NCBI RefSeq assembly: GCF_003473485.1
Contig: NC_053042.1
Coordinates: 34,128,762-34,192,761, forward strand
Direction of reading: 5' to 3'
Length of the DNA stretch: 64,000 nt
Origin: Medicago truncatula
Lineage: Eukaryota; Streptophyta; Magnoliopsida; Fabales; Fabaceae
A program made the translations under genes and the position numbers. Position 1 is the stretch's first letter, and each line of letters opens with the position of its first letter. Positions 21,797-63,807 of the stretch are shown here, piece by piece. The notes under the pieces are model-generated. The model made no database searches. It worked only from the letters and a program-made list of their open reading frames with translations, and was not told the origin of the DNA.

Positions 21797-23263
<1,467 letters not shown>

Positions 23264-26200
23264 CAATTTTAATACAAGAGATACTTATCTTTATGTTTTT
23301 AGGTTTTGCAAGAGATTTTGTTTATGCCTAAACTTTGTCACCATTTTGTCTTTCCTTGATTTATGTTTAAGTATCTTTTGGATATATGATATTTGGTTGG
23401 ATTTAGAATATGATTAACTTGGATAACTACGTGTTTCTCTCACTGTTCTAGCTATTACTATCATATTAGTCTATGCAAATTACTGTTCTTGCTAAGTTCA
23501 AATCCATGTTTTGTCTCAAGAGTTTGGATGTTTTAATGAATTTTGATACCTCAAATTTACGGATGACGATTCATCAATTTGTTGAAATTTGAAGTATTAT
23601 GTCGGGTGTCAACTGAGTTTTTGTTTTCAGTATTGTTACTGAATTAGGACATTCCAATTTGAAAAATAATACTATTTTTCCTCTTTTAAATTAAAAATGG
23701 TTGAAGTATTTTTGGGATTTTAAAGGTTCAAGGCTACATCCTACATCCATCTTATACCATTGGTGTTGTAATATGCCTGGCTTGTCAAGTCGTTGGTGAA
23801 ATGATTTCGTTTAGTGGAATCTGTCTCGTTTTTGTTAGATGAGAGTAATGTGACATGGTATAAAGAATATAATTCAACGTGAGTAATCTCTGGTACGGTT
23901 TATTAAATTTGTATGTGATCTTGCATTTCACTTGTCAAACCTGACTGTATTAGCTCGGAGTAAAAATCCTAGCTCAACTTTCTTGGGTAATCATCAACAA
24001 TTGAGATACTAATGTCATTATTTGGTCTAGCCTAACATTTACGAGTCATTACATAACTAGCAAGCATCGTATTCTAACATTGAAGCCTATACAAAGCTAT
24101 CTAATACGAAGATAATCTTTGCCTTTGCTAGACTCCAGTAATGTCTGGTTCTAACTTTGACAAACTCATTTTTTTGAATTCCTGATATACATGCATGCCA
24201 AGGCTTGTTTATGCTGCGGTAGCTAAAAAAACCAGCATCCATGTCACATTTTAAGACTTCCAGAGTTGTATTTGTTAGAGTGCACTTGCAGTTATGTACT
24301 CGTGTGAGTGATTGTTGAGGATTGTTCTATAGGCATTTAGCAATTGAACGACAATTTAATTGGTAGTGAATTAATTTGGGGTGTTGCGAGCAATTGCTAT
24401 GTGTTTCTCTTTATTAAGTAGTACACGTTGCTCTATTAAGTATGAACATACCTACTCCGTATGATCTCTACAAAAAAAAAAAGTTGTGCTCCATATGAAG
24501 AAAGTAACATGGAATTTTTGCTATTTTTATCGTTATGAATGAATCACTTCGCTTTTTTTTTTTTTTTGTTTTTTTTTTGTTTTGAAGAATGAATCACTTC
24601 CTTTCAATCTACTATATCAAAGGACTTCCAAAGTATCCTAATGCTCTATTCATACTAGCGCACCCGGTTTGGAGAAAGGGGTGAAAGTGAAGTTTAGTGT
24701 TCTACTAAACCTTTGTAAACCTTTGCACCATTCTCACCTTACAATTGTTGACATAGATGGATTTAAAGAGAGAGTGGTGATATGTTGACCACCATAGGTG
24801 GCACACACCTCTTCCACCGCACACAAATGTGACATGTAGCTCTCACCATGCCATCTAACACTCTCTTTTATATGGGATGAAATTACTAAAATGTCATTTC
24901 ACATGAGGTGTATAATGGAGGTATGAGAATAAAGAGTGTCAACATAACATTGTTGTTAAAGATATGTTTTTTTTTCTTTTCGAAGAGAATTTGTTAAAGA
25001 TATGTTATTTACGTTTTGATTACTTTATGTAGTAACTCAATGGAATTAACTATTAGCAAGGTTTTTCTCTATTACTAGGATGTAATGTACTGATTTTTCT
25101 GCATTTCCATTTAACATACACTGACTCTAAGTAACTTTTACCTTTACAAGAAGCAAAGCTAAGAGATTGCCTAAGAATTGCTCTAGTTTTGTAGCCCTGT
25201 CAATCAATGTCCAATGGTAAGCTGTCGATTGATGGAATTTCTCAACCAATTCTTCTAACGGAGTTAATTTATTTTGCACTCATCAAAATCATGACTACCA
25301 TAACTACTTTTGACTTTTGATTCTAAATGTTCATCACTGATATACTGATTTGTATTAACTTTGGTACAATAACATGATGTAACTTTTACAAATAAATTAT
25401 CTGTTTTTTTTTTTTTTTATAACATAATGTTATTTTTTTCATATATATTTATGGATTGACTTATATGAGTTTATTTACAAACAGAGTCATTTGTGACACT
25501 ATATGAAAGACCTTATTAAAAACACTTGTAATACATACATATATAAGTTCTTTTCAATTTATCTCCATAAGTTTTTTAAGATAACTTATGAAAATAATTT
25601 ATAACATATAAATTAATTTGGTTTTAGAAATAACTTATACATAAAACACTTATATAATAAGTGCTTATGCTATAGACACTTAATTAAGTTGTTTATCCAA
25701 ACACGAGCTTGTAATTATATGCTTTTGTTTGCACTGGATTTGGCAAAATACATATTGTATGGTAAACTATTTGCAATTTTTCTTTTTAACCTTCTAATAA
25801 TTGTTACTTGTTAGCATGTCGGCATGATATGATCTGTCCCTTATATTGTATGTTACTTGAAATTCATTTTGGAATTTATTTTGTATAAAGCGTGTTCATA
25901 AATTTTTGGCCTTAGAAAAAGCTCGTGAATTTTGATCTGTTTACGTAGAAATAGTGTGTACATGTCGACCAAAATTTAGTACTCGTTCGTAGAAGCATAA
26001 TAGGAATCTTGGCAAATGTTTGAGTAAAGCACAAGTAAATTAATCACAATGATAAAATCATAGAAGATTGTCTTCAAAAGGTGATTGAAATTAAACACAT
26101 CACATTGATGTTACATTACTAGAGGACACTCTTCAATCCTTTCACCAAGCTGGGACCATCATTATTGAGCAGAAGGTAGCAAAAGTAAACTATGATAAAC

Positions 26201-32592: not shown

Positions 32593-33645
32593 GAATTGAC
32601 TTATGTGTCACAATTAGATTGATCAATGTCAATGACATTTCCTCTGCAGTGGTACACAAGTGGTGTTAGTTTCACCGTGATATCAACACACTTTTTTTTT
32701 TTTTTTTTTGTATCTTCAGCCCAATTGAACATTTACTTCTATCCTACCGCAAGAACAAACACACCATTAATCTTGTAAAAAGTAAATTCGCTGCCATTTT
32801 AATAACCTTCACCCCTTCATCCTTCTTCAGACCCTTCAATCCCTTTCTCGACTCCCAAAGCTATCATTGCCTTCTTTTCTATATCCCACCCTCCTGCCGA
32901 CACTATCTCACCAACCCTCACACTTACCACCCATTCCTCCCCTCCTCCGATAACGAACTCCCTCCCCACTTCCCTCTTTCATAAATTTTTCTCCATCCTC
33001 TCTAACCCCTTCTAACCTTGCCTCCATCACCTGCAACTTTTCCTCAACTAACACCTCCATCGGATCACGAAACCTATCAATCTAATTGACTTATATGTCA
33101 CAATTAGATTGATCAATGTCAATGACATTTTCTCCGCAGTGGTACACAAGTGGAGTCCGTATTTAGTTTGATTCTGCATTGAATGTGTTAATCTCACGTC
33201 CATGTTAGTTTCACCGTGATATCAACACACTTTATTTTTTTTTTTTTTTTTGTATCTTCAGCCCAATTGAACATTCACTTATATCCTACCGCAAGAACAA
33301 ACGCACGATTAATCTTGTAAAAAGTAAATTCACTGCCATTTTAATAACCTTCACCCCCTTCATCCTTCTTCAGACCCTTCAATCCCTTTCTCGACTCCTC
33401 AATTATTTTCTACTACCCCAAAGCTATCATTGCCTTCTTTTCTATAGCCCACCCTCCTGCCGACACTATCTCACCAACCCTCACACTTACCACCCATTCC
33501 TCCCCTCCTTCGATAACGAACTCCCTCCCCACTTCCCTCTTTCATAATTTTTTCTCCATCCTCTCTAACCCCTTCTAACCTTGCCTCCATCACCTGCAAC
33601 TTTTCCTCAACTAACACCTCCATTGGATCACGAAACCTATCATAC
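32593..33645. repeat. Tandem duplication of a ~0.5-kb CT-rich segment
   Basis: The sequence from 32593 ('aattgacttatgtgtcacaa') to about 33084 recurs from about 33085 to 33645 in the same orientation with point changes. The second copy is longer by an ~50-bp block after 'gtacacaagtgg' and a shorter block near 33398. Both copies contain a poly(T) run and a C-rich stretch. A minus-strand frame (33471-33722, MEVLVEEKLQVMEARLEGVR) is reminiscent of the coiled start of plant retroelement gag proteins, so the segment may be a decayed retroelement piece; that is uncertain. Confidence 0.75.
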
Positions 33646-33864: not shown

Positions 33865-34632
33865 GAAATTTATTCAAGTTATTAATTCCACTTTTGTTTT
33901 TCTAAACTAGTCTATTTGGTAGTTTTTTTATTGGTTATATTTTTTTTTTACTAAGACCGTTAAGGATTCATCTTTAAACCTTTTTGATTAGTCCACAATA
34001 TTAAAGAGTGTTAATGTTATTTATAAACTAGATTACGTGAGATTTTTGGTGCATTATAACATTGACACCTCACCTCTAAAATAGAGAACATTAATATTAC
34101 CAAAAAGAATAAAAAACATTAACCTCTTTAATTAGACATATATAATCAGACATATAGCTAGGTTTCAATTTTAGTAGCCAAACTAACTGCTCAAGTCTCA
34201 TCATGTCGAGAACCATATATTCAAGAGATTGTGATAATTATTCGTAAAATGGTTAATTAATTTCATGTACCGTGAAATAAAAGAGGACTTTGAGGCAAAG
34301 CAAGCAATATAGAAAAGAAAAAGAATTATATTAAAAAACACTTGACAATGACATTTAACTCTCAACTTATCATGATAAAAAAAGAAAAAGAAAAAACTCC
34401 CAATTCTTCACCAATAGATGAGTGACATGTTAGATTCAAATCAAACGACTTGACTTCCCAACTCACTATTTGATAGATACTCTTGTCCTAATAATTGAAT
34501 TCAACCACACACTTATAGCTAATTCTCTTAATTAATTTCCCTAACATATATAACTATTAACTACCAATACCAATACCAAGTACACAAAATAATTTTGTTG
34601 GCCTCATTCATTCACCATTGTTGTTTGTTGGT

Positions 34633-34976
34633 AGCATAATCACTGGATATCACTCCCGAAATGAATCCCATATCTCGCATGCAATACTAGCTCTGATGAC
34701 TTATACTATATATTGAGGTATTGATATATATTATATTGTGATTCTTATTGTTATAATTGGTCCTCTCTATTCTAATTGACTACATACATTAATGTTATAA
34801 TTTGTCATGCATGTAATTCTTATGCTTGGATTGATTTCAACTTCTATGAATAATTGGAAATAAATGCTTGTAGATGGATTCCCTGCCATGAATCTTCAAA
34901 CTAATGGTGTTGAGATGATCTTGGAGCTAGTTAATTAATGGGGTACATTTCGGGAGTGAGAACCAGTGATTAAGCC
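34633..34976 (+). ncRNA. Candidate microRNA precursor (foldback) complementary to the CESA4-like gene
   Basis: The 5' arm (34633-34672) and 3' arm (34938-34976) pair over about 36 bp with few mismatches; the core CACTCCCGAAATG (34651-34663) faces CATTTCGGGAGTG (34946-34958). A further short pairing (CCCAT; ACTAGCTC with GAGCTAGT) extends the stem after an asymmetric bulge, leaving an AT-rich loop region. A TATA-like sequence (CATATATAAC, about 34545-34554) lies about 85 bp upstream. The 21-nt segment 34946-34966 is complementary to 43889-43909 in the first coding exon of the CESA4-like gene with a single mismatch at its position 16. Both arms also resemble that exon beyond the core, as in microRNA genes born by inverted duplication of their target. 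I do not recognise it as a named microRNA family. The loop is long for a precursor, and small-RNA expression is unknown. Confidence 0.55.
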
Positions 34977-35810
34977 AGTACTACACTGCATAATGCTGCT
35001 GATGAAACTTCTTGAATATTTATGGGTTAGCTATTTTAATTCAACTCATTCATCATAATCAACTTCATTGGTGCATGGTTTTTCTGCAAATTACTAGCCT
35101 TTTAATTTGTAAATAATTCGAGATGATTGATGACTCAGACGAACAATGTTGCTATATATATTTTTTGCTATTCATGGTCAATTACTTATCATTTTTTTGA
35201 ACAAATTACAAACATAATATATACTAATAGATAAAAAGAATCAAGACACAAAGTACAAAGAGTAACAGAAGTACTCAATAAGAAACTAACATAAATACTC
35301 ATTTGAGAATTGGATCAATTAAAAGCTACTTTTATGTTTTTTAGTGTTAATATATATATGAGATTTTTCTGTGTTCCATTGTAGTGAGACATGAAATACC
35401 TACGAATATGTACATTAATAATATTTTTTTTTTTTTGAAGAGAAGTACATTAATAGTTATAATGCATTGGTGGCAATAATATAGTTCCCGGTAGCATCCA
35501 ATGACATGAAAAAACAACCAAGGTTTAACAATTTTCATCCTGATGATTCTGTTTGATATATTTTCTGTAGTCAAACCCATGCAACCAAAATACAAAATAA
35601 GAATAAAAGTTATTTTTTGAATGGTAAAAAGTATATTAATAATGGATAAAGTACAAGTAGTACTACACCCAGCATATAGGAATTAGTATACAACCGGGAC
35701 TACACATTAAAAAATGAGATAACAACATTATACCACCGGTCCACCACCGAGCATACATTTTAGCGGACTTTGAAACCATTACTATCTATGTCTTAGACAA
35801 ACAATACATA

Positions 35811-41520: not shown

Positions 41521-42170
41521 AAAGTTGAGTTCTTACTTCTAAAGAAAAGATAGTCCTTAAAGTATTTAAAATTTATCAATTTAGTTTGTAAAGTATATGA
41601 AAATCTATCATTTTAATCCAAATTATCTTGCTAACCGAGATTGAATTGATATATTTGAAATACTTCAAAGACTATTTATTATATTTATGTAGTTTAAAGA
41701 TTAAATTGAAGAGTGATAATTCAGAGACTCAAATGCTAATTTATTCATTTTTAAAGAGATAGATTTAAAGCACCATTTAAAATTAGAATAAACAAGGTAC
41801 TTTTGCATTCGACAAATATTTTATAATAATATAGCTCCAAAAAAAATTACAATATAAAAATATTTAAAAGGTTTTTTTTTTTTTTTTTTACAAAGGAAAC
41901 TTTTATTTATTGGCACTAACAAAGAATACACGAGCTTTTGTCAATAAATAAATAAACAAACTCTTTAAGCTACACAATGCCCCCCCCAAAAAAAATAAAA
42001 AATAAAATAAAGTTACACCAACATTTTTTTCAAAAATAAAATAAAACACATCAATGGTAGATGTTTGTATCTCTTGATCAAGGGATTTTTGGTTGGTGTG
42101 TGCATGGAAAAACATATATTAAAAGATATTAATCTCCGTCGTAGAGCGTGAGATACTTAGTCTAAAAAAG

Positions 42171-42729
42171 ACTCCTTTAATTATTAGGAAAATTCTATGG
42201 TGAAGTTATAAGAATGACTTTTTTGTTGAAGTTAACAATATAACATCAAAAATGTAATGAGTAATACACACTGTTTGTACAATGACATCAAAAGTTCAGT
42301 CCTCAAAGTATCATCAATTCATCAGATTAACAAGACTAGACTTAATCTAATTTTATCCTACCTTGTTATAAGCATAACACCCTATAAAGTGTAACACTTA
42401 AGACTGTCACATAATAACATCAACTCTGTTTGCATGTTAAAGATTCCAACGATAAAATAATACATGTAAGTCCAAGATGTTGCAAGCATTACTAGATGAA
42501 TTACTATTGATTATTAATCAATAATCAACAATTTAAAAATGAATCAAACATTAAAATCAAAATTAACTTTTTTAAAAAAGTCAGTTTCCTGACTGCACCG
42601 TAGAAACTCCTTTATTATTAGGAAAATTCTATGGTGAAGTCATAATAATGACTTTTTTGATGAAGTTAACACTATAACATCAAAAATGTAATGGATAACA
42701 CCCACTGTTTGTACAATGATATCGAAACT
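42171..42729. repeat. Pair of ~125-bp direct repeats
   Basis: The block at 42171-42296 ('ctcctttaattattaggaaa' onward) recurs at 42604-42729 at roughly 90% identity in the same orientation, separated by about 300 bp. No coding capacity; the family is unknown. Confidence 0.8.
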
Positions 42730-43866
42730 CCCTAATTATTAATGCAAGTTGAAAGAAAAATTACTGCATGAATGGATTTTCAGGTGCTAAAAAGAAAATG
42801 AAAAAGATTTGCTCACTTTCCTTTTGTTATCTTAACAACCCATAGAAAAGGAAGTTAACAATAAAAGATGGCAGAATTATGATGTGCCAACTTAAAATTG
42901 ACATTAATATCCAACAATCACCCAAGAGGTGCAAGTGCATAGGATTGTTAACAAAATCATGATTATCTTTTATATCACATATCTTTTGCATAAGACAAAT
43001 GAGAGTGATTTTAATTTCCATCAAGATTTAACCCAATACAACATTAGCAAATAATGTATAGACATATATATACATCAGCTTTCTCCTTCACAGAGAATCC
43101 AATCGATGTAAAATGACATTTTTGTTGTATAGTAAAATGTCTACACTCAGTGGCCCTAACCAGTAACCATGTTTCAAAACATAGGGGTAGTGTGTAGTAA
43201 TAATCCTATAACCTCATGCAGTCAGTCACTTTTGAACTGTTTGATCAAGATTAAACGGTTTAACTTTTAAGCTCGCTATTTTAAATTTAAAAGAAATCAA
43301 AATCAGAATTGAAATACGGACCGTCTGATTTTGATCGGACAATCTAGACGCACACAATCTAAATCTTATTACAACGGGGTGCAAAATTTCATCTTCAATG
43401 TATTTTTAATTCGTTTTCGATCTTATGTAGCTATAAGTGATTTACATTTGAAAATATTATTTTTCCTACCTAGTGCATTAGCTCAATTATATATGTGGTT
43501 TTCATCTACTTTAATTAGTTTTTAATCTTATAGCTAATTAGATAGTATACATTTAAGAGTAAAGAACAATGAAACATATTTAACTCCTAATCATCAAAAC
43601 AGAAACTATGTTTAGGATAGAGTTTAGGTTAGCTATGTCTATAATATACAAGCATGCATGAATATGCATAAACAAAAGCAAAGCAATCATGCAATACATT
43701 TCAACTCAAATCCATGACCTCTCAACTCTCACAGTGTGCCAAAATATTTTGATGGTAACTCTGATATTACTGCATTCATGCATTAGATTCTCTCCTTCTT
43801 ATAATAAATACCCTCCTTCACTTCTTCTCTATGCAATCCTCAACTCCGCAACCTTCTCTTTCCTCT

Positions 43867-46800
43867 ATGGCCTCAAAAGCCTTAACCACTGGTACTCACT
43901 CCCGAAATGGACGCCGTTTCTCAGTCTTTGATGACTCGGATGAGGTATTCAGCATGCTTCTTCTCTTTACTTTGCCGGTTCGACTTTAATTGTTTCTGTT
44001 AGATAAAACTTTTATAACTATAACATTAATAACATTAGATTGAATGTAAGTGTATTGGACTATGTAAGTAATCAGAAGGATTATGAGATTAAGGCTTTGT
44101 TGTTGTACTGTGTTTTACAGGAAAATGGAGACTGCAATATTCAACAGCAACGGAAACATGACGATTATGCTTTCTCTTTAGCTGGAAGTGGTGAGCATCT
44201 TTTTGTGTTAAATTAACTTTGGAATGAATGAAAAAAAAACTGTAATAATTTTATGCACACTTTTCTGAGTTGTTCTGTAGTAGCTAGTAAGGATTTTGAA
44301 GAGCAGAAAGCATTCAACTATGATGAAGAGAAAGGGAAAGGAAAGCAAGAAAAGAGAAGTCTTATGAGCAATGACATAGAAGAAGATGACTACCTGTAAC
44401 TTTTCTTCTCTCAAATACTCTATCAACGCTATGAAACTATGTACATTAGAATGCATTTTCTTCTTCTCAACTCTTACTTAAGATGTTTCTTTCTTCTGTT
44501 ATTATGATCTTGCAGGCTGGCTGAGTCAAGGCAGCCATTATGGCGCAAAGTACCAATAGCTTCGAGCCTAATCAATCCATATCGCATAGTCATTGTCATG
44601 CGTCTTGTTGTCCTAGTTTTCTTCTTCCACTTTCGCATCACAACTCCGGTGCACGACGCATTTGCCTTATGGATAATCTCTGTGGTCTGCGAAATATGGC
44701 TCTCTTTGTCTTGGATAGTAGACCAGTTCCCCAAGTGGTTCCCCATGACACGCGAAACTTACTTGGAGCGCTTGTCCATGAGGTTTGAGCGCGAAGGAGA
44801 ACCGAATCTTTTAGCCGCAGTCGATGTCTTTGTTACCACTGCAGACCCTTTGAAGGAACCACCTATTATAACAGCAAACACAGTTCTATCAATCTTATCT
44901 GTTGATTATCCTGTTGACAAAGTAAGCTGCTATGTATCAGATGACAGTGCATCTATGCTTCTCTTTGATACCTTGTCACAAACTTCTCAGTTTGCAAGAA
45001 TATGGATTCCATTTTGTAAAAAGTATAGCATTGAGCCAAGGGCACCTGAGTCCTATTTTTCTCAGAAAGTTGATTACTTGAAAGACAAGGTACATCCAAC
45101 ATTTGTAAAGGATCGCAGGGCTATGAAGGTAAATACTACATAAAATTAAGCAATCAAATATGACATTTCTTATTTATTTTCTTCTTTTCTAATATTGATT
45201 TTGTTCTATTTTTCTATGTGAGGCTTACAACATTTTTCTTTGCAATTCTGCAGAGGGAGTATGAAGAATTCAAGGTGAGAATTAATGTACTGGTTGCAAA
45301 GTCTCAGAAAAAACCAGAAGAGGGGTGGGTTCTGCAAGATGGTACTCCATGGCCTGGGAACAACAGCGAAGATCATCCAGGAATGATTCAGGTTTGCCAA
45401 TTTCATTTACAAAAAAGATAAAATAAAGTCAAACTGTTTCCATATAAGCTTTAAGTTGTTTTCATAAACTATCCTGGAGGGCTTATAGAAATAAGCTGAA
45501 AACAGCTTATGAACATGTCATAAAAGATTTTTATAAGCTCTCCTAAATAGTCTCACAAAATGTTTATGTCAGTAGATAAACTCAAATAAGTAAATCCAAA
45601 TTTGTTATTTGTGTTCTCTTGTTGATTGTTAGGAAACTAGAGGAAAAATCAAGCCTATATTTGTTCGAAATTTGGTTAATGACAATAGATGAAGAACTAT
45701 AACATATAAGGACTTGCCTTTGTAGGTGTGTCTGGGAAGTGCCGGTGCTCTGGACAATGAAGGTAATAATCTTCCACGGCTTGTGTATGTTTCACGCGAG
45801 AAATGTTCCGGCTATCAACACCATAACAAAGCTGGAGCCATGAATTCTCTGGTAACTAGTTCATACTTTATACTTGTGTTAAAGTTTTATTTCATGATGT
45901 TATAAAAACATGATATTATAAAAACCATTTAATAACTCTTGAAATGCTTCATTTCCTCAAAAGCTTCGAGTTTCTGCGGTGCTTAGCAATGCACCTTTTG
46001 TGTTGAATCTGGATTGTGATCAATACATCAATAATAGCAAGGCTCTTAGGGAGTCTATGTGCTTCCTAATGGACCCTCTACTTGGAAAGAAGACCGCTTA
46101 TGTCCAATTTCCACGAAGGTTTGATGGCATTGACGATAATGATAGATATGCCAACCACAACACTGTATTCTTTGATGTAAGAGATATTGTTTTGAACTAA
46201 AGTAAAAGTTGCAATTTCATTAACAAATCTTTAACTCCTGCCTTGAACTTTTCCTTGTTTGTAGATCAACATGAAATGCCTTGATGGAATTCAAGGTCCA
46301 GTGTATGTTGGTACTGGATGTGTGTTCAACAGGCAGGCATTATATGGCTATAAGCCACCATCTGACAAAAGACGAAAGACAAACTTCTCATGGTGTTGCT
46401 GTTGTTCTGGTGACTCTCGGTCAGCATTTGACATTGAAGAGATTGATGATGGACTTGAAGACTATGACGAGAAAGAGGAATCACCGATCATGTCTGTCAA
46501 AGTTTTTGAGAAAAAGTTCGGAGAGTCACCAGTTTTCATTGCTTCTGCATTGATGGAAGATGGTGGACTTCCGAAAGGAACTAATACTCGAATACTAATG
46601 AAGGAAGCCATTCATGTTATAAGTGTTGGCTATGAAGAGAAAACTGAATGGGGCAAAGAGGTAATTAATCCAGTCAATACAAGAATGTATACATTTCATG
46701 ACTGTCGACCAAAGTGTCATTTATTGACTTTTCTTTCTATGCAGATAGGGTGGCTTTATGGCTCTGTCACAGAAGACATCTTGACAGGGTTTAACATGCA

Positions 46801-48190
46801 TTGTAGAGGATGGAAATCAGTGTACTGTATGCCAAAAAGAGCGGCTTTTAAAGGATCTGCACCTATAAACCTATCAGACAGATTACACCAAGTTCTGAAA
46901 TGGGCTTTGGGTGCTACTCAGATTTTCTTTAGTGGTTATTGTCCATTGTGGTATGGCTACAGTGGAAAACTCAAATGGCTTCAAAGACTGGCTTACATGA
47001 ATGCTATCGTTTATCCGTTCTCTTCTATCCCTCTTTTAGTGTACTGCACAATTCCAGCTATCTGTCTTCTGACTGGAAAGTTCATCCTCCCCACTGTAAG
47101 TACATAATAAATTTATTACATTTGATTAATAGGTGCATCTTAATCCAAATAGACCCTTAGGAGTTAGGACAAGTTTGGATTGACTTATTTGAGTTTACCT
47201 ACCGGCATAAACACATTTAAGGCTGTTTGAAAGAGCTTATAGAAACAACTTACGACATGTCAATAAATTGTTTTCAACTTATTTCCATAAGCTCTCCATG
47301 ATAGCTTTATGCAAACAGCTTATAGCTTATATCAAAGCAGTTTGACTTTATTTTATATTTTGTTATAGAAATAGCTTGTGCATAAGCACTTCTATGATAA
47401 GTGTGTATGTTATAAGTGCTTTATTAAGTTGTTTATCCAATCATGGTCTTAACGTGAATACAACATGACTTTGGCCACCCTCATTCACAACATGATCCTA
47501 ATTACTTTTAAAAGAAGAAAAAACAGCTATACTGATATTAGATTTATGACAGGAGAACAGCTATGGGTATATCAAATTCATGTCTTATAACAAAAGTTCT
47601 CTTTTGTGCAGCTGACAAGCCTTGCAAGCATTTGGTTAATGACTCTATTTATCTCCATCATTTTAACTTGTGTGCTCGAGCTTCGTTGGAGTAAGGTTAA
47701 CATTCAAGACTGGTGGCGCAACGAGCAATTCTGGGTCATTGGAGGTGTTTCTGCACACCTTTTTGCAGTGTTTCAAGGCCTCCTTAAAGTTGCAGGACGC
47801 GACACTAGCTTCGCCGTGAGAACAAAATCAGCAGATGACACTGCATTCGGACAGCTCCATCTCTTCAAGTGGACCACTCTTCTCATTCCACCAACAAGTA
47901 TTGTAATCTTGAACATGATTGGAATTGTGGCAGGAGTCTCTGAAGCCATTAACAGTGGCTATAACTCATGGGGACTTTTATTTGGGAAGGTTTTTTTCTC
48001 TTTGTGGGTCATTGTGCACTTGTACCCTTTCCTCAAAGGTCTACTGGGAAGGCAAAACAGAACTCCTATCATAGTAGTTCTCTGGGCAACACTTCTGGCT
48101 TTGATTTTCTCGATGATATGGGTGCGAATTGATATTTTCTTACCCAAGAAAACAGGCCCTGTACTCGCACAATGTGGGGTAGAATGCTGA
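43867..48190 (+). CDS. Divergent CESA4-type cellulose synthase lacking the RING zinc finger
   Basis: Ten exons (43867-43944, 44121-44190, 44281-44395, 44516-45128, 45254-45391, 45726-45851, 45964-46176, 46265-46660, 46745-47095, 47612-48190) encode 892 residues in consistent phase. The best recalled match is CESA4/IRX5 of secondary walls: [27 protein letters not shown], the C-terminus [16 protein letters not shown]. Two N-terminal and about six C-terminal membrane helices flank a cytosolic GT2 domain with D230D231, DCD (397-399) and TED (592-594). Oddities: the RING finger present in nearly all CESAs is absent, the class-specific region is about 50 residues short (484-513), QxxRW is QVLKW (632-636), and conserved REKRPGY..HKKAGAMNA reads [17 protein letters not shown] prefer ATG 43867 because a TATA-like box lies at 43799-43810; an in-frame ATG at 43831 would add 12 residues. 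Splicing looks intact, so it may be expressed, but function as a cellulose synthase is doubtful. Confidence 0.88.
43889..43909 (+). promoter_or_regulatory. Predicted microRNA-type target site in CESA4-like exon 1
   Basis: This 21-nt segment is complementary to 34946-34966 of the foldback candidate at all but one position (opposite small-RNA position 16), with full pairing across positions 2-13. Cleavage would be expected opposite positions 10-11, at about 43899/43900. Similarity to the foldback arms continues beyond the site, including TGATGACT at 43929-43936. Confidence 0.5.
45430..45605. repeat. Dispersed repeat in a CESA4-like intron (same family as 25452-25715)
   Basis: Phrases 'ataagctgaaaacagcttat' and 'gtagataaactcaaataagt' are shared with 47170-47455 in altered order or orientation. 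It sits wholly inside the intron between coding exons 5 and 6. Confidence 0.55.
47170..47455. repeat. Dispersed repeat in the last CESA4-like intron
   Basis: Shares 'gacttatttgagttta', 'ataagcact..tatgataagt' and 'ttaagttgtttatccaa' with 25452-25715. It occupies most of the 516-bp last intron. Confidence 0.65.
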
Positions 48191-49061
48191 GATCGTAGAG
48201 AAGTGAGGGTGGCGATCTTCCCATTTCATCTGATGATCTTTGTTGTTTCACTGGAGTGTTTACCCTTATGAGACAGTAACAGTCAAGATTTATGATGCAA
48301 GTTTAGTTAGTTAACTGAAAAGTAAATATTGTTTTGTAACCATCAGATACGATTTCTTTACATCCTAGAAGCATGAATATCATTATCATTTATGGTGCAA
48401 GGTTGCTTTGTAACATATGATATGATTTACTGTTATCATTGAAGCATGATATGAATTATGGTGCAAGATTCACCGGTTAATTAAAAATTTAAAACTAAAG
48501 ATTGCTTTGTAACATGTATATGATATGATATATGATTGCTTGTTAATTGTTATTAGTGCAGCATGAAATATGTACACCTCCAGATTCATGTAGATAATTT
48601 CTTATCTCAATGACTGAAGCATATCCTCCTTTGATTGATACAAGGTATCAATCTATCTTTCTATGATATCAAAGCCTACACTAGCTATCTTGCAATGCAA
48701 CTTGATAACAAAGGAAGTGTTAAGCTACAAGAAACTTTCAGAGTAACTTCTAGGTGGAGGAATTAGCTGTGAGCAGGATGCTGCCATAATAACCATTGTG
48801 AAAACAGGAGGCAAAACTTGAATTTTTTAAAACTTACAGAGCCTTAGAATATATAAAGATGAATGAAAATCGGCAACAAAAAGTAAACATATTGTGGCAT
48901 ACGATGGACTTGGGAGAAAAAAAGTTATTCAAGGGACACATCATAGATTAAACTTTAAAGCCAAGTATAATTACAAGAGAAAATTACACATTACATCATA
49001 TCATTCATAAAAAACAAATCAAAATATGCATTCTCAACACAACTTCCCACAAATAAACACA
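48191..49061. other. Spacer between convergent genes, with the CESA4-like 3' UTR
   Basis: The first ~200 bp probably hold the 3' UTR of the CESA4-like gene. A motif 'aagattgctttgtaacat' and relatives recur at about 48320, 48400 and 48500, suggesting small local duplications. No gene is seen. Confidence 0.45.
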
Positions 49062-52687: not shown

Positions 52688-53678
52688 TATATATTCAAGA
52701 ATATAGAAATTACATCCTTGTGTAATTTTTTTTTTTTTTTTTTTGAGAGAATTTTATTTTTATTTTTCTTGTCTTTTTAATCTACTCGGCTAGATTAATA
52801 GCCCTCCGGACTTTTGTTTTTGTTTCTTTTTTTCTTGTCTTTTTTTTTTTATTTAAAAAAAGTGAGTAACTACTCATTGGAACACTGGCAGAGGCAATGC
52901 AAATCGAGAAACTGAAAGTTCTTTTGTAGGAGTCTAACAATTAGTAAACAGAAATGATACTCAGACACAAAACCATAGACAAATATACGACACCATATTT
53001 ACAAGGATGGGTAATTTCGAAATTTCAACATTAAACCAAGGACAGTTTTGGAAAATCCAATTTATCTTCTTCTTTCCCTGCTCATTGCCGTGCGTTCCCT
53101 CTCCCTACGAACCTCTTCTCTCTTCTCTCACATCACCTCCAATCGGCAAGTTCTCCTCTGATATTTCACCATTGATTGAAGCAAATTGATATAGGTAAAT
53201 CTCAAATCTCCATCTCCTTCATCATGTATGACAATCTCATATCCGGTTCCTTTTACATTCAATTTCAATTTGATCTGAAATTATGGTGTTCAATGTGTTC
53301 TTCAGTTTTTATTTTGATGGCTATGGGTATTAAAAAGAAAAAGGTAAACTATTTAATTTCCCTTTGAAACTATATTTCGTTTGTCATTAAACATGTTTGA
53401 AAGTTTATTTGGGTTTTTTTTCTTCATAGCTAAAGTTTTATGTGTGAAGCTATGAACATTGTGTTGATTTGTTTCATGACTGTGTTTGCCTTTTGCAGTG
53501 AAAAAAATGTCTAGAAACTCTTCCAATTTCAATTTGACACAATTGAAAAGAAAGGGTGGTTAGTTGTTTTGGTTGTGATATTGTTGTTAGTGTTGTGTGG
53601 TGTTGTTTAGATAGAATTGTTTTCAGCTTTTGAGAGTTTTATGAGCTGCATTTGCTGTGCTTTTGCAGTGGACATTTT

Positions 53679-54047
53679 ATGCTCAGTTTTCTGCCTAGCA
53701 TTGTGCGAGTTGGCTGCTGCAATGTTGGGCTGTTGCGGCTTTGCTTTCCTACTGTGTGCACGCCCGTTTCACATGGATTGTTGACCACTGTTGTCTTCTT
53801 TACATGGATTGGATTATCCGAAACAACACCAATTCAACAAGCTTGTAAATGTTCCGACATAATGAAGGAAATGAGCAATAAGAAATTTGAAAAGTTAAAT
53901 GTCAATTTGTATGTTGAGAAGAAAGGAATTGGAGTATCATTCTTTTGTTGCTGCTATGGTGATTTTTTGTTACTTATGTACTTAGGTTTTAGGGGAAAAT
54001 TGAAGGGTTTATTTGTTACACTTGTTGACTATTTTGTGATTGTTTAA
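53679..54047 (+). other. Unrecognised 122-residue frame in the left half of the element
   Basis: A frame from ATG 53679 to a stop at 54047 has a cysteine-rich hydrophobic first half, a lysine-rich middle (SDIMKEMSNKKFEKLNVNLY) and a hydrophobic end with CCC. Just upstream, after a good acceptor, lies MSRNSSNFNLTQLKRKGG followed by a stop. The order (Ser/Asn-rich start, then coiled stretch, then membrane-like end) faintly recalls plant GRF-zinc-finger proteins, but the GRF motif itself is not seen. The same sequence is repeated at 57598-57966 and 61516-61884. It may be a decayed second gene of the element. Confidence 0.25.
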
Positions 54048-54347
54048 AACAATTATGTAAGATTGAAATCATAGTATTTGTATCATAATAGAAATGTATT
54101 GTATTATGATAATGGTAATGATTGCTTTTGAAATTTATTAAGTGCCAACTATTTATGACAGGTTCAATTTTAGTCTTGTAGTATCTTGATGATAAACTGT
54201 AATTTAACAAGGCAGCTAGTACTGTTAACAAGGTGGTTGCGGAAACTTGCAAATTAACCAAATCTTTGAAGTGAATACATGATATTTAACAAAAAGATTA
54301 ACCACATCTTTTTTCTATTCTCAAATATTAAGTTGTGACTATTTTTT

Positions 54348-54710
54348 TTTAAAACGGCAAATTTATTAGGCTAAGATGTCGCAAGAAGCAAACAAACTCC
54401 CACAAGAAAGGGCTACAAAAGGTTCCGCATATAGATGAAAACCAAACAAACAAAACAAAACACTCAAACACCTCCCCCCATATACAAACCGAAACAGCAA
54501 AGTACAAGGCCACCTGCTAATAGCAGAAAACTGGCGTGCATACGAGCACCCAAACAAATTGCCCACCCGAAACACAAACAAATAAAACAGATAAAACAAG
54601 CTGCACCTAAACCTGCAACATTACCAACAGGAAGCTAGGCAAGAAAAATAGAAGACAATTCCTTCCTATCTAACAAGACAAGTCCTTCCTATCTAACAAG
54701 AAAAACATAA
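54348..54710 (-). mobile_element. LINE 3'-end insertion inside the element (copy 1)
   Basis: On the minus strand it ends CTAATAAATTTGCCGTTTT followed by an A tract, with GT-rich untranslated sequence before it, as in L1-type 3' ends. It is flanked by GACTATTTTTT at 54337-54347 and 54711-54721. The same insertion is in all three copies, so it predates the triplication. Confidence 0.6.
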
Positions 54711-55141
54711 GACTATTTTTTCACCTTACAATGATACAAGACACATAAGAAGCGCACACCCATAATATTTCATTGATAAGTTGTATGGAATTTAAGAGTT
54801 TTGACATGAACTTGCAAAATAACATTGCTGCATTATATTCACTAATTTGTCCATTACTGCAACACCATTTCTATGGTTGATTAAGTACATCACAAAATAA
54901 AACTTAAATTACATAAGTTAACTAACATTGTACCTAATGTTGACTTTACAGACATGTTTTCCCAAAAAAAAAAAAAAATGAAATTCATGACTATGTATAG
55001 ACCTTTGTCCCCATGATCTGGCCACCAAAAAACACAATATCATTGTTATATAAGTCTTGTTATATACACACAAAAGGCCACTTCATCTTCTTAGCAGTGA
55101 GTGCATTAGCTTTTGTCCAAAAAATATTAGAGTTGTCCATA

Positions 55142-55971
55142 CTAGTTAACTACCATTGTACTTGCATCTAGCAAATTTCCACCACTTACAACATCAACAT
55201 ATGGTTCAATGTAGATGTTGCTGTCAAACTGATTTGTCACTCTTTGAGAATTGTTGTCCTGCAAATTTGGACAAACAGGAAATTAAGATGGAATATCCAT
55301 ATATACAAGGTGATTACAAAACTTGTAAATAAAATAAAACATACATTAGTTCCTCTGCCATCACCTTCTTTTCCAATTGCACGTCGTTCCTTGTTAACAT
55401 AATTCCTCACATCTCTTTCATTAAATGGTACATTTTCATGCCCGCCTGCATCTTTAACAAGAGATTGAAAAGTCTTGTTGATCCTCACACCTGCATCATC
55501 ATTGATTTGAATTGTCCTCTTTACATGCAAGTCCATATTCTTGTTAGCCTTGAACAACCTTGCCTTTGTAGGGCTAGTATGATGAGAATGATTAGGCTCA
55601 AATTTGTTAATGTACCACAATCCATCTGCTTTCAACTTGATACAAATCTTAGCAGGACAACTTTTTCCCATTGTCGGACGTGTCTTCAATGTACATACAC
55701 TTTTCGTCACTTCAGCCCGATCTCTTGTGCATGCAAGAATTAAGTAGCATACCTCCCCATCCTTTCCTTTTCTCGATGTTCTAATCTTCCAATCAAAACC
55801 CTTTCTCAAAGCATATTCTCTATAAAATGATTTAACATCATCTATGCTAGAAAAACACATATCTGTTTTAGGCTCCCACCATGCATCTTCATTTTCAACA
55901 TTAAAGTTGTCAACTTCTATGCCTTCATCATGAATACTACCACTATCCACAAAAGCATTTGGATTATCCAT
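55142..55971 (-). CDS. FAR1-domain-only protein (FAR1-related sequence type), copy 1
   Basis: Two exons (55345-55971 and 55258 down to 55142) encode 247 residues. Residues about 42-131 form a FAR1 DNA-binding domain: SIDDVKSFYREYALRKGFDW, then C81, C105 (KSCPAKI) and H128-x-H130 (NHSHH), the zinc-binding C..C..HxH set of WRKY/GCM1-type fingers. An acidic N-terminus precedes it and a basic ERDVRNYVNKERR stretch follows, which in full-length FAR1/FHY3 proteins leads into the MULE transposase domain. Here the protein stops after a short second exon, so the transposase and SWIM domains are absent. A 5' leader intron is likely (acceptor just before the ATG, donor near 56527). It could bind DNA, for instance the element's own ends, without cutting. 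The role is inferred from the domain only. Confidence 0.75.
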
Positions 55972-58266
55972 GAATGTTCAATTGTGGGGGCAATTGACAC
56001 CCCAAATCTGCACAAAATAACTCAAAATGTAAGCATGGACTTCGTCGAGATAAGCACGCATAATGTACCTCACATACTTTGTCATTAGAAAGAAACATTT
56101 CAACACAACAGAAAAACATAACAGAAATATAAGAGAAAAATTGTAATCAAAGGAGGGTATCAGATTTAAGTATTAGCAATGTCTAAGTCTGTAATCATGA
56201 AATTAAGTTGAGAAAATTAATATTGAGCATATTCATTATATAAAACCTGAATCAATTTCATTATTTAGTGAATTCAAAAATTTAGGGTTTGTGATTTAAA
56301 ATTGGGGGAAAACGAAAATGATGAAGGAACCATCTCACCCCATGATAAAAATGGAAGAATGAAGTAATGAAATGAGATAATAAGTGGGAATAAAACAAAA
56401 ATGATTTGGGTTTAAGATTTTTTTTTCTATCTATTTATGAATCAAACCAACGTTTTCCTCAACCAAGGTAAAACAATAACTACAAGCTACTAAAATTCTA
56501 AAAACAAGAGTAGAGAAAGGAAAGAACCTGAGCATGAAAACGAGGAGGAACAGTGGAGGAATACGGCGTTACGGCGGCAGCTGGAGTGACCGAAATAGCA
56601 TGAGAGGCTGGCACTGCACAAAGATGAAGGAGTGACGAGAAATTATTAGTGAATGAAAGATGATTTGTTCTTGATCATGGGAAATGACTGAATCAGAAAG
56701 AGGGAACTCAAAAGAAACAAGAGGGAAAAAGAAACGAGGGAAAGAAGGAAAGAAGAAAAGAAGAAAAGAAGGAGAAAATAAATGTAAAAAAATATATGTA
56801 TTAGGTAACAGTGAATGGTGTTGTATATTTGTCTCCACTTTTGTGTATGATTATCATTTCTGATTAGCAGAAATGATACTCAGACACAAAACCATAGACA
56901 AATATACGACACCATATTTACAAGGATGGGTAATTTCGAAATTTCAACATTAAACCAAGGACAGTTTTGGAAAATCCAATTTATCTTCTTCTTTCCCTGC
57001 TCATTGCCGTGCGTTCCCTCTCCCTACGAACCTCTTCTCTCTTCTCTCACATCACCTCCAATCGGCAAGTTCTCCTCTGATATTTCACCATTGATTGAAG
57101 CAAATTGATATAGGTAAATCTCAAATCTCCATCTCCTTCATCATGTATGACAATCTCATATCCGGTTCCTTTTACATTCAATTTCAATTTGATCTGAAAT
57201 TATGGTGTTCAATGTGTTCTTCAGTTTTTATTTTGATGGCTATGGGTATTAAAAAGAAAAAGGTAAACTATTTAATTTCCCTTTGAAACTATATTTCGTT
57301 TGTCATTAAACATGTTTGAAAGTTTATTTGGGTTTTTTTTCTTCATAGCTAAAGTTTTATGTGTGAAGCTATGAACATTGTGTTGATTTGTTTCATGACT
57401 GTGTTTGCCTTTTGCAGTGAAAAAAATGTCTAGAAACTCTTCCAATTTCAATTTGACACAATTGAAAAGAAAGGGTGGTTAGTTGTTTTGGTTGTGATAT
57501 TGTTGTTAGTGTTGTGTGGTGTTGTTTAGATAGAATTGTTTTCAGCTTTTGAGAGTTTTATGAGCTGCATTTGCTGTGCTTTTGCAGTGGACATTTTATG
57601 CTCAGTTTTCTGCCTAGCATTGTGCGAGTTGGCTGCTGCAATGTTGGGCTGTTGCGGCTTTGCTTTCCTACTGTGTGCACGCCCGTTTCACATGGATTGT
57701 TGACCACTGTTGTCTTCTTTACATGGATTGGATTATCCGAAACAACACCAATTCAACAAGCTTGTAAATGTTCCGACATAATGAAGGAAATGAGCAATAA
57801 GAAATTTGAAAAGTTAAATGTCAATTTGTATGTTGAGAAGAAAGGAATTGGAGTATCATTCTTTTGTTGCTGCTATGGTGATTTTTTGTTACTTATGTAC
57901 TTAGGTTTTAGGGGAAAATTGAAGGGTTTATTTGTTACACTTGTTGACTATTTTGTGATTGTTTAAAACAATTATGTAAGATTGAAATCATAGTATTTGT
58001 ATCATAATAGAAATGTATTGTATTATGATAATGGTAATGATTGCTTTTGAAATTTATTAAGTGCCAACTATTTATGACAGGTTCAATTTTAGTCTTGTAG
58101 TATCTTGATGATAAACTGTAATTTAACAAGGCAGCTAGTACTGTTAACAAGGTGGTTGCGGAAACTTGCAAATTAACCAAATCTTTGAAGTGAATACATG
58201 ATATTTAACAAAAAGATTAACCACATCTTTTTTCTATTCTCAAATATTAAGTTGTGACTATTTTTT

Positions 58267-58629
58267 TTTAAAACGGCAAATTTATTAGGCTAAGATGTCG
58301 CAAGAAGCAAACAAACTCCCACAAGAAAGGGCTACAAAAGGTTCCGCATATAGATGAAAACCAAACAAACAAAACAAAACACTCAAACACCTCCCCCCAT
58401 ATACAAACCGAAACAGCAAAGTACAAGGCCACCTGCTAATAGCAGAAAACTGGCGTGCATACGAGCACCCAAACAAATTGCCCACCCGAAACACAAACAA
58501 ATAAAACAGATAAAACAAGCTGCACCTAAACCTGCAACATTACCAACAGGAAGCTAGGCAAGAAAAATAGAAGACAATTCCTTCCTATCTAACAAGACAA
58601 GTCCTTCCTATCTAACAAGAAAAACATAA
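58267..58629 (-). mobile_element. LINE 3'-end insertion inside the element (copy 2)
   Basis: Same insertion and flanking GACTATTTTTT repeats as in copy 1. Confidence 0.6.
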
Positions 58630-59059
58630 GACTATTTTTTCACCTTACAATGATACAAGACACATAAGAAGCGCACACCCATAATATTTCATTGATAAGT
58701 TGTATGGAATTTAAGAGTTTTGACATGAACTTGCAAAATAACATTGCTGCATTATATTCACTAATTTGTCCATTACTGCAACACCATTTCTATGGTTGAT
58801 TAAGTACATCACAAAATAAAACTTAAATTACATAAGTTAACTAACATTGTACCTAATGTTGACTTTACAGACATGTTTTCCCAAAAAAAAAAAAAATGAA
58901 ATTCATGACTATGTATAGACCTTTGTCCCCATGATCTGGCCACCAAAAAACACAATATCATTGTTATATAAGTCTTGTTATATACACACAAAAGGCCACT
59001 TCATCTTCTTAGCAGTGAGTGCATTAGCTTTTGTCCAAAAAATATTAGAGTTGTCCATA

Positions 59060-59889
59060 CTAGTTAACTACCATTGTACTTGCATCTAGCAAATTTCCAC
59101 CACTTACAACATCAACATATGGTTCAATGTAGATGTTGCTGTCAAACTGATTTGTCACTCTTTGAGAATTGTTGTCCTGCAAATTTGGACAAACAGGAAA
59201 TTAAGATGGAATATCCATATATACAAGGTGATTACAAAACTTGTAAATAAAATAAAACATACATTAGTTCCTCTGCCATCACCTTCTTTTCCAATTGCAC
59301 GTCGTTCCTTGTTAACATAATTCCTCACATCTCTTTCATTAAATGGTACATTTTCATGCCCGCCTGCATCTTTAACAAGAGATTGAAAAGTCTTGTTGAT
59401 CCTCACACCTGCATCATCATTGATTTGAATTGTCCTCTTTACATGCAAGTCCATATTCTTGTTAGCCTTGAACAACCTTGCCTTTGTAGGGCTAGTATGA
59501 TGAGAATGATTAGGCTCAAATTTGTTAATGTACCACAATCCATCTGCTTTCAACTTGATACAAATCTTAGCAGGACAACTTTTTCCCATTGTCGGACGTG
59601 TCTTCAATGTACATACACTTTTCGTCACTTCAGCCCGATCTCTTGTGCATGCAAGAATTAAGTAGCATACCTCCCCATCCTTTCCTTTTCTCGATGTTCT
59701 AATCTTCCAATCAAAACCCTTTCTCAAAGCATATTCTCTATAAAATGATTTAACATCATCTATGCTAGAAAAACACATATCTGTTTTAGGCTCCCACCAT
59801 GCATCTTCATTTTCAACATTAAAGTTGTCAACTTCTATGCCTTCATCATGAATACTACCACTATCCACAAAAGCATTTGGATTATCCAT
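59060..59889 (-). CDS. FAR1-domain-only protein, copy 2
   Basis: Exons 59263-59889 and 59060-59176 encode the same 247 residues as copy 1, with an identical translation of exon 1. Both splice sites and the leader acceptor are preserved, so nothing distinguishes its coding potential from copy 1. Confidence 0.75.
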
Positions 59890-62184
59890 GAATGTTCAAT
59901 TGTGGGGGCAATTGACACCCCAAATCTGCACAAAATAACTCAAAATGTAAGCATGGACTTCGTCGAGATAAGCACGCATAATGTACCTCACATACTTTGT
60001 CATTAGAAAGAAACATTTCAACACAACAGAAAAACATAACAGAAATATAAGAGAAAAATTGTAATCAAAGGAGGGTATCAGATTTAAGTATTAGCAATGT
60101 CTAAGTCTGTAATCATGAAATTAAGTTGAGAAAATTAATATTGAGCATATTCATTATATAAAACCTGAATCAATTTCATTATTTAGTGAATTCAAAAATT
60201 TAGGGTTTGTGATTTAAAATTGGGGGAAAACGAAAATGATGAAGGAACCATCTCACCCCATGATAAAAATGGAAGAATGAAGTAATGAAATGAGATAATA
60301 AGTGGGAATAAAACAAAAATGATTTGGGTTTAAGATTTTTTTTTCTATCTATTTATGAATCAAACCAACGTTTTCCTCAACCAAGGTAAAACAATAACTA
60401 CAAGCTACTAAAATTCTAAAAACAAGAGTAGAGAAAGGAAAGAACCTGAGCATGAAAACGAGGAGGAACAGTGGAGGAATACGGCGTTACGGCGGCAGCT
60501 GGAGTGACCGAAATAGCATGAGAGGCTGGCACTGCACAAAGATGAAGGAGTGACGAGAAATTATTAGTGAATGAAAGATGATTTGTTCTTGATCATGGGA
60601 AATGACTGAATCAGAAAGAGGGAACTCAAAAGAAACAAGAGGGAAAAAGAAACGAGGGAAAGAAGGAAAGAAGAAAAGAAGAAAAGAAGGAGAAAATAAA
60701 TGTAAAAAAATATATGTATTAGGTAACAGTGAATGGTGTTGTATATTTGTCTCCACTTTTGTGTATGATTATCATTTCTGATTAGCAGAAATGATACTCA
60801 GACACAAAACCATAGACAAATATACGACACCATATTTACAAGGATGGGTAATTTCGAAATTTCAACATTAAACCAAGGACAGTTTTGGAAAATCCAATTT
60901 ATCTTCTTCTTTCCCTGCTCATTGCCGTGCGTTCCCTCTCCCTACGAACCTCTTCTCTCTTCTCTCACATCACCTCCAATCGGCAAGTTCTCCTCTGATA
61001 TTTCACCATTGATTGAAGCAAATTGATATAGGTAAATCTCAAATCTCCATCTCCTTCATCATGTATGACAATCTCATATCCGGTTCCTTTTACATTCAAT
61101 TTCAATTTGATCTGAAATTATGGTGTTCAATGTGTTCTTCAGTTTTTATTTTGATGGCTATGGGTATTAAAAAGAAAAAGGTAAACTATTTAATTTCCCT
61201 TTGAAACTATATTTCGTTTGTCATTAAACATGTTTGAAAGTTTATTTGGGTTTTTTTTCTTCATAGCTAAAGTTTTATGTGTGAAGCTATGAACATTGTG
61301 TTGATTTGTTTCATGACTGTGTTTGCCTTTTGCAGTGAAAAAAATGTCTAGAAACTCTTCCAATTTCAATTTGACACAATTGAAAAGAAAGGGTGGTTAG
61401 TTGTTTTGGTTGTGATATTGTTGTTAGTGTTGTGTGGTGTTGTTTAGATAGAATTGTTTTCAGCTTTTGAGAGTTTTATGAGCTGCATTTGCTGTGCTTT
61501 TGCAGTGGACATTTTATGCTCAGTTTTCTGCCTAGCATTGTGCGAGTTGGCTGCTGCAATGTTGGGCTGTTGCGGCTTTGCTTTCCTACTGTGTGCACGC
61601 CCGTTTCACATGGATTGTTGACCACTGTTGTCTTCTTTACATGGATTGGATTATCCGAAACAACACCAATTCAACAAGCTTGTAAATGTTCCGACATAAT
61701 GAAGGAAATGAGCAATAAGAAATTTGAAAAGTTAAATGTCAATTTGTATGTTGAGAAGAAAGGAATTGGAGTATCATTCTTTTGTTGCTGCTATGGTGAT
61801 TTTTTGTTACTTATGTACTTAGGTTTTAGGGGAAAATTGAAGGGTTTATTTGTTACACTTGTTGACTATTTTGTGATTGTTTAAAACAATTATGTAAGAT
61901 TGAAATCATAGTATTTGTATCATAATAGAAATGTATTGTATTATGATAATGGTAATGATTGCTTTTGAAATTTATTAAGTGCCAACTATTTATGACAGGT
62001 TCAATTTTAGTCTTGTAGTATCTTGATGATAAACTGTAATTTAACAAGGCAGCTAGTACTGTTAACAAGGTGGTTGCGGAAACTTGCAAATTAACCAAAT
62101 CTTTGAAGTGAATACATGATATTTAACAAAAAGATTAACCACATCTTTTTTCTATTCTCAAATATTAAGTTGTGACTATTTTTT

Positions 62185-62546
62185 TTTAAAACGGCAAATT
62201 TATTAGGCTAAGATGTCGCAAGAAGCAAACAAACTCCCACAAGAAAGGGCTACAAAAGGTTCCGCATATAGATGAAAACCAAACAAACAAAACAAAACAC
62301 CCAAACACCTCCCCCATATACAAACCGAAACAGCAAAGTACAAGGCCACCTGCTAATAGCAGAAAACTGGCGTGCATACGAGCACCCAAACAAATTGCCC
62401 ACCCGAAACACAAACAAATAAAACAGATAAAACAAGCTGCACCTAAACCTGCAACATTACCAACAGGAAGCTAGGCAAGAAAAATAGAAGACAATTCCTT
62501 CCTATCTAACAAGACAAGTCCTTCCTATCTAACAAGAAAAACATAA
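62185..62546 (-). mobile_element. LINE 3'-end insertion inside the element (copy 3)
   Basis: Same insertion as in the other copies, one base shorter in a C run. Confidence 0.6.
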
Positions 62547-62977
62547 GACTATTTTTTCACCTTACAATGATACAAGACACATAAGAAGCGCACACCCATA
62601 ATATTTCATTGATAAGTTGTATGGAATTTAAGAGTTTTGACATGAACTTGCAAAATAACATTGCTGCATTATATTCACTAATTTGTCCATTACTGCAACA
62701 CCATTTCTATGGTTGATTAAGTACATCACAAAATAAAACTTAAATTACATAAGTTAACTAACATTGTACCTAATGTTGACTTTACAGACATGTTTTCCCA
62801 AAAAAAAAAAAAAATGAAATTCATGACTATGTATAGACCTTTGTCCCCATGATCTGGCCACCAAAAAACACAATATCATTGTTATATAAGTCTTGTTATA
62901 TACACACAAAAGGCCACTTCATCTTCTTAGCAGTGAGTGCATTAGCTTTTGTCCAAAAAATATTAGAGTTGTCCATA

Positions 62978-63807
62978 CTAGTTAACTACCATTGTACTTG
63001 CATCTAGCAAATTTCCACCACTTACAACATCAACATATGGTTCAATGTAGATGTTGCTGTCAAACTGATTTGTCACTCTTTGAGAATTGTTGTCCTGCAA
63101 ATTTGGACAAACAGGAAATTAAGATGGAATATCCATATATACAAGGTGATTACAAAACTTGTAAATAAAATAAAACATACATTAGTTCCTCTGCCATCAC
63201 CTTCTTTTCCAATTGCACGTCGTTCCTTGTTAACATAATTCCTCACATCTCTTTCATTAAATGGTACATTTTCATGCCCGCCTGCATCTTTAACAAGAGA
63301 TTGAAAAGTCTTGTTGATCCTCACACCTGCATCATCATTGATTTGAATTGTCCTCTTTACATGCAAGTCCATATTCTTGTTAGCCTTGAACAACCTTGCC
63401 TTTGTAGGGCTAGTATGATGAGAATGATTAGGCTCAAATTTGTTAATGTACCACAATCCATCTGCTTTCAACTTGATACAAATCTTAGCAGGACAACTTT
63501 TTCCCATTGTCGGACGTGTCTTCAATGTACATACACTTTTCGTCACTTCAGCCCGATCTCTTGTGCATGCAAGAATTAAGTAGCATACCTCCCCATCCTT
63601 TCCTTTTCTCGATGTTCTAATCTTCCAATCAAAACCCTTTCTCAAAGCATATTCTCTATAAAATGATTTAACATCATCTATGCTAGAAAAACACATATCT
63701 GTTTTAGGCTCCCACCATGCATCTTCATTTTCAACATTAAAGTTGTCAACTTCTATGCCTTCATCATGAATACTACCACTATCCACAAAAGCATTTGGAT
63801 TATCCAT
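62978..63807 (-). CDS. FAR1-domain-only protein, copy 3
   Basis: Exons 63181-63807 and 62978-63094 encode the same 247 residues as copies 1 and 2. Its 5' leader exon lies beyond the window. Confidence 0.75.

Follow-up and report, generated by a model that had tools for sequence, protein, structure and literature searches.

The inverted duplication of gene fragments is regarded as the route by which new microRNA genes form in plants. Arabidopsis MIR163 and MIR161 are MIRNA genes of this origin, and MIR163 is linked to its targets. Fahlgren et al. trace 16 MIRNA loci of Arabidopsis to inverted duplication; identity of the parental gene with the target is not required by these authors, and 7 of the 16 loci fit it (PMC1790633). 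For Arabidopsis MIR826, one report describes a precursor that is very similar to the target AOP2, attributes it to duplication of that target, and places it in close linkage with AOP2 and its homologues, AOP2 being truncated in the Col ecotype (PMC3498362). A lineage-specific miRNA of the Salicaceae, MIR1444, acts on polyphenol oxidase enzyme genes, and its origin is the subject of a further study (PMC5223194).

The stretch of Medicago truncatula DNA analysed here (the window; 64,000 nucleotides) contains a foldback that resembles, and is chromosomally linked to, its presumed target gene, as is described for MIR826 and AOP2. The presumed target, a CESA4-like gene, begins about 9 kb downstream of the foldback on the same contig.

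Structure and copy number of the foldback

The whole imperfect foldback occupies 34607..35006 of the plus strand, with 34607-35006 as its outermost pair, and consists of a 5′ (sense) arm at 34633..34672 (+), an inter-arm stretch at 34673..34936 (+), and a 3′ (antisense) arm at 34937..34976 (+). An earlier reading of this DNA, made from the sequence only, had proposed that two arms pair across about 300 bp. A repeat search of the window bears this out, recovering the arms as an inverted repeat of 38 nt (34634-34671 with 34938-34975) that is 87% complementary and 266 nt apart, within one long imperfect foldback; it is one of 27 inverted repeats in the window of at least 25 nt and with a spacing within 600 nt. 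In the predicted fold, the main stem runs from a lower stem, which falls outside the exon-like part, through the exon-like arms to a short upper stem in which 34686-34696 pairs with 34921-34931 (innermost pair 34696-34921), the remainder of the inter-arm stretch forming the loop and minor stems. By manual count on this predicted fold, the main stem comprises 67 pairs and encloses 224 bases.

The RNA fold of 34600-35010 has an energy of −115.6 kcal/mol (z −5.37), and none of 100 dinucleotide shuffles was equally low; the stable fold on which the sequence-only reading had made its proposal depend is thus present. Among 636 folds of 411 nt each, computed for 318 windows at 200-base steps on both strands and corrected for G+C, the plus-strand window at 34601 took rank 7. 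The energy of the foldback is strong, yet neither unique nor exceptional within the window. A minus-strand transcript, a conceivable alternative, is predicted to fold less well than a plus-strand one over 34600-35010 (−99.4 versus −115.6) and over 34500-35100, and better over 34300-35300 (−208.1 versus −185.9).

The foldback appears to be single-copy. A 411-base search of the whole 430-Mb assembly (429,922,655 bases, 42 contigs) found no second copy, and, since the same search missed the exon match too, it is evidence on long, close copies only. The copy number of the arms was assessed across the whole assembly with the 23-mer CACTGGTTCTCACTCCCGAAATG, which at up to three mismatches occurs at three places in all—the 3′ arm (0 mismatches), the CESA4-like exon (1), and the 5′ arm (2)—while the reversed-pattern control under the same conditions gave 0 places. 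By hand arithmetic under uniform composition, about 0.001 places would be expected by chance in 430 Mb at one mismatch or fewer. A dispersed repeat, a transposon or a MITE-derived MIRNA was rejected as the source of the foldback, for which one place was found in 430 Mb and whose arm 23-mer is confined to the locus and the exon; the multiple genomic copies that the earlier reading had named as fatal to its proposal did not appear. No Rfam match reaching the gathering score was found in the foldback stretch.

Several further features lie in the window. Just upstream of the foldback, two adjacent open frames (32670-32984 and 33209-33547) have translations that are very similar by eye and form a local direct duplication. 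An H/ACA snoRNA match (snoR137; 56.8 bits, gathering 44) is located at 22224-22364. The stretch from 52949 to 64000 is occupied by about 2.8 tandem units of some 3,919 bp, which are 99.9% identical and run past the window end; all share one open frame, and the one copy examined for domains has a FAR1 domain. This array either was duplicated very recently or is an artefact of the assembly; Tandem Repeats Finder reported nothing in it because the longest period it considers is 500.

Kinship of the arms with exon 1 of a CESA4 paralogue

The CESA4-like gene (43867..48190, plus strand) has 10 exons with 892 codons and a stop, and AG and GT stand at 9 of 9 internal junctions; its exon 1 (43867..43944, plus strand) is homologous to both arms. 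Pfam identified a cellulose-synthase domain and gave no match to the N-terminal RING/zf-UDP domain in this gene, the genome having 14 other matches to the RING family. At the position of the QxxRW motif the gene reads QVLKW, where the CESA4 of this genome reads QVLRW, as do the two plant chains of solved structure that were listed, and its class-specific region is shortened, as judged by eye. The gene that we take to be true CESA4, from its likeness to plant CESA4 sequences, lies on another contig (C2:15.23 Mb; RING at C2:15230043; exon 1 MATNTMAGLITGSNSHFSHDSDE). Exon 4 of the CESA4-like gene is 79% identical to true CESA4, the top other match among 61 in the genome. The earlier identification of the linked gene as CESA4-like therefore stands in that it is a CESA4 paralogue, and falls short in that this paralogue is RING-less and CESA4 itself is elsewhere.

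Rough estimates over 806 codons (residues 87-892) gave a dS of about 1.2, a dN of 0.15, and a dN/dS of about 0.12 between the CESA4-like gene and CESA4, dS and dN being possibly inflated by some alignment that runs through introns. The CESA4-like gene looks, from its sequence, like an old, constrained paralogue and not like a plain pseudogene; its activity is probably altered, and its product could be an altered or non-catalytic cellulose synthase under constraint. Medtr1g069605, listed among cellulose synthase-like proteins (PMC7933732), may be this gene, and Medtr2g035780, described as MtCesA4 (PMC4118957), may be the true CESA4 at C2. Within its introns, the CESA4-like gene carries two inverted copies (81%) of a MITE-like repeat at 45413-45605 and 47169-47361, which resemble 25452-25703 and parts of the CESA4 locus. 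An inverted exon copy was rejected as an explanation for this pair, which is repeat sequence recurring at those places and is unrelated to the foldback.

The 21 nt at 34946-34966 are complementary, with one mismatch, to a predicted site at 43889..43909 (+) in exon 1 of this presumed parental gene, and both the coordinates and the mismatch count of the earlier reading proved correct. When 34000-35600 was compared with 42000-49000 (1.6 kb against 7 kb), 34937-34974 matched 43881-43918 over 38 bp (86.8%, E 1.2e-7) and the 5′ arm matched exon 1 over 40 bp (77.5%, E 0.003). Apart from these two arm matches, the comparison gave only short ones with E 0.11 or worse, and a promoter duplication was rejected. 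Exon 1 itself was found at one place in the genome by a search that shows long, close copies only. In the whole genome, the only place beyond the locus within two mismatches of three core-covering 3′-arm patterns is the CESA4-like exon, and other targets were rejected, as the outside places of two shifted registers (3 and 2, against 4 and 4 for the reversed control) are all at 3 mismatches. The complementarity is near-perfect and directed to a single gene.

Over 40 ungapped columns, the exon agrees with the reverse complement of the 3′ arm in 34 and with the 5′ arm in 28, and the arms agree with each other in 33. Private changes number 5 in the exon, 6 in the 5′ arm, and 0 in the 3′ arm, with one column differing in all three. 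Under equal rates, the split of 0 versus 6 between the arms has p = 0.031 and that of 0 out of 11 has p = 0.012, both post hoc and over 40 columns. A 14-nt core is identical in the three copies; with 12 of the 40 columns variable, random placement yields a block of at least 14 with a probability of 0.023, again post hoc. Weakly, and after the fact, this distribution of private changes fits a guide located in the 3′ arm.

To judge the similarity of the flanks, the 14-base core was removed and anchored scores were compared with those of 1000 dinucleotide shuffles and 1000 window 70-mers; unanchored local scores were compared with those of 3000 shuffles. For the 3′ arm and the exon, the upstream score was reached by 4 shuffles and 2 window 70-mers (unanchored, 100 shuffles), and the downstream comparison was null (94 and 206; unanchored, 530). 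For the 5′ arm and the exon, the upstream score was reached by 22 and 41 (unanchored, 218). On the downstream side of the 5′ arm, additional sense-arm similarity pointed out by the sequence-only reading (GATGACT ... GAGGTATT) stays suggestive, with 32 shuffles and 45 window 70-mers reaching the anchored score and 327 shuffles the unanchored one. Thus, one of the four anchored arm-exon tests is strong, two are marginal, and one is null. Between the arms, the corresponding values are 3 and 2 upstream (unanchored, 97) and 8 and 24 downstream (unanchored, 153). Taken together, the anchored and unanchored scores support common descent outside the core for the two arms and for the upstream flank of the 3′ arm with the exon; they are suggestive for the 5′ arm and give no sign of it on the downstream side of the 3′ arm. 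Each arm resembles the gene over 38-40 bp, beyond the miRNA region, as the Allen/Fahlgren model of inverted duplication predicts.

These comparisons give good support to a common origin of the two arms and the first exon of the linked gene, and the four-sequence alignment of the arms with both first exons bears on the order of events. The core TCACTCCCGAAATG is common to the arms and the CESA4-like exon and not to CESA4, and the arms and CESA4 have ATCACTGG where the CESA4-like exon reads ACCACTGG; upstream of the core, the 3′ arm is similar to exon 1 of true CESA4, which matches the foldback with E 1.2e-4. With one mismatch allowed, a genome search for CTGGCTTNATCACTGGNTCT gave two occurrences, one in the 3′ arm and one in CESA4 exon 1, each of them exact, and its control gave none; this match is suggestive only, because the pattern was picked after the alignment and the shared descent of the two genes explains part of it. 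Since the arms retain CESA4-shared bases that are altered in the linked gene, they were probably copied from an earlier version of the linked CESA4-like exon. The simplest order would be that CESA4 gave rise to the CESA4-like line and that a fragment of the older exon form was then copied twice in opposed orientation. The single-copy foldback and the kinship of its arms with the exon thus partly support the earlier proposal of an inverted-duplication locus linked to its source, with the amendment that the donor was probably not the exon in its present form.

A candidate guide and its rival explanations

The best explanation, to which we give an even chance of being correct, is a MIRNA gene, or a proto-MIRNA gene, that arose by inverted duplication and is aimed at the linked parental CESA4-like gene; the inverted-duplication origin taken by itself is well supported by the sequence comparisons. 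The foldback, 9 kb upstream of the present gene, would consist of exon 1 of an ancestral CESA4-like gene copied twice in opposed orientation, and a plus-strand transcript would fold into a hairpin. From this hairpin, a Dicer-like enzyme would release a guide of 21-22 nt from the 3′ arm, at about 34944-34970, the star strand lying in the 5′ arm; Argonaute loaded with the guide would then cleave the CESA4-like mRNA in exon 1, at about 43899. The complete frame of the target and its dN/dS of about 0.12 against CESA4 over the last 806 codons favour the MIRNA reading.

The 21-nt candidate guide of the earlier reader, 34946..34966 (+), has a similar alternative in 34948-34968 (+), which starts with U. 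The predicted energy of pairing with the exon is 0.93 of that of a perfect match for the former and 0.91 for the latter; of six registers examined, five (starts 34944 to 34950) lie at 0.84-0.93. For plant MIRNA genes, the source used here sets limits of five mismatched bases, a 3-nt asymmetric bulge, and a 300-nt precursor (PMC12594335). Registers that start at 34944-34955 are predicted to leave 3-4 guide bases and 3-4 bases on the opposite side unpaired, all in symmetric loops, and are thus within the five mismatched bases allowed for a duplex of 20-24 nt; for 34946-34966 and its neighbours, the loop is a symmetric 3x3 one, with no asymmetric bulge over three bases. From the guide to its paired stretch, the foldback measures about 324 nt (34643-34966) and exceeds the precursor limit, an excess that miRScore treats in plants as a warning and no failure (same source).

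A variant with two overlapping small RNAs, one at ~34948-34968 acting on the linked CESA4-like gene and one at 34959-34979, shifted by 11 bases, acting on true CESA4, appears improbable; if true, the hairpin of a divergent paralogue would tune secondary-wall cellulose synthesis through a dual output of the MIR161 type. True CESA4 as the main target was rejected: register 34959-34979 differs from it at 3 positions, as it does from five other places (reversed control, 3), and it breaks the duplex rule because 7 guide bases stay unpaired in the predicted fold. Register 34956-34976 on CESA4, at 0.84 of the perfect energy only by way of a 13-base target loop, was rejected too.

A possible though doubtful alternative to the MIRNA gene is a silent relic, in which an exon-1 fragment was copied twice in opposed orientation near its source by local rearrangement and now decays, no small RNA being made. 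The mostly eroded flanks, the guide-star span beyond the 300-nt annotation limit, and the abundance of inverted repeats in the window (the 27 mentioned above) fit such a history, whereas the persistence of 67 pairs in the main stem, including the lower stem outside the exon-like part, the unaltered 14-nt core in three copies, and a 3′ arm free of private changes argue against it. Imperfect stems with internal loops, such as this one, suit DCL1 better, which speaks against a further, unlikely alternative, a hairpin-siRNA locus, at which several Dicer-like enzymes would produce mixed 21-24-nt RNAs silencing or methylating the CESA4-like gene in a stage that precedes a MIRNA gene. The length of both stem and precursor would agree with this stage, as would the view of Fahlgren et al. 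that the products of local inverted duplications range from uniform miRNAs to mixed siRNAs (PMC1790633).

An older, legume-wide conserved MIRNA family with its exon site under selection would overlap with the favoured explanation in mechanism and differ from it in age. The invariant core and the slow 3′ arm could be read in this way, but both arms are similar to the exon past 21 nt, a second copy was not found in the genome, and the foldback is without an Rfam match at the gathering score. Nor was a small RNA from the foldback found in print by searching main texts with 13-19-letter sequence pieces; single-piece matches there look, by title, like bacterial, algal, animal or vector sequences. 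The main text of a Medicago truncatula root miRNA catalogue contains neither 'cellulose synthase' nor 'cesa' (PMC4212123), and topic searches of the literature gave no title on such a locus among the matches listed. We regard an older family as very improbable. A chance likeness of an unrelated hairpin and exon is scarcely credible: although single 21-mers at 3 mismatches do arise randomly, as the reversed controls indicate, the occurrence, within 9 kb, of three 40-base stretches that resemble one another and share a 23-mer with no fourth place at up to three mismatches cannot sensibly be ascribed to chance.

Comparison with described inverted-duplication loci

If a small RNA is made from the foldback, the locus would provide a clean linked pair of parent and offspring in which to watch the formation of a plant MIRNA gene, and an odd, RING-less CESA4 paralogue would have gained a regulator. 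The parental exon, both arms, and the outgroup CESA4 are readable within one genome.

Unlike MIR826, for which a sequenced small RNA and cleavage products are described, and unlike MIR163 and MIR161, which yield functional miRNAs, the foldback is a predicted source of a small RNA. The kind of target differs as well: the candidate target of the foldback is a cellulose-synthase paralogue related to CESA4, whereas that of MIR826 is AOP2 and those of MIR163 and MIR161 are methyltransferase and PPR genes. An enzyme gene as candidate target is shared with MIR1444, which comprises 23 genes over several species in contrast to the single locus described here. Given the loci of Fahlgren et al. and the pair of MIR826 and AOP2, a linked, target-derived foldback is of a known kind, and the Medicago foldback is a candidate new example of it, in a different gene family.
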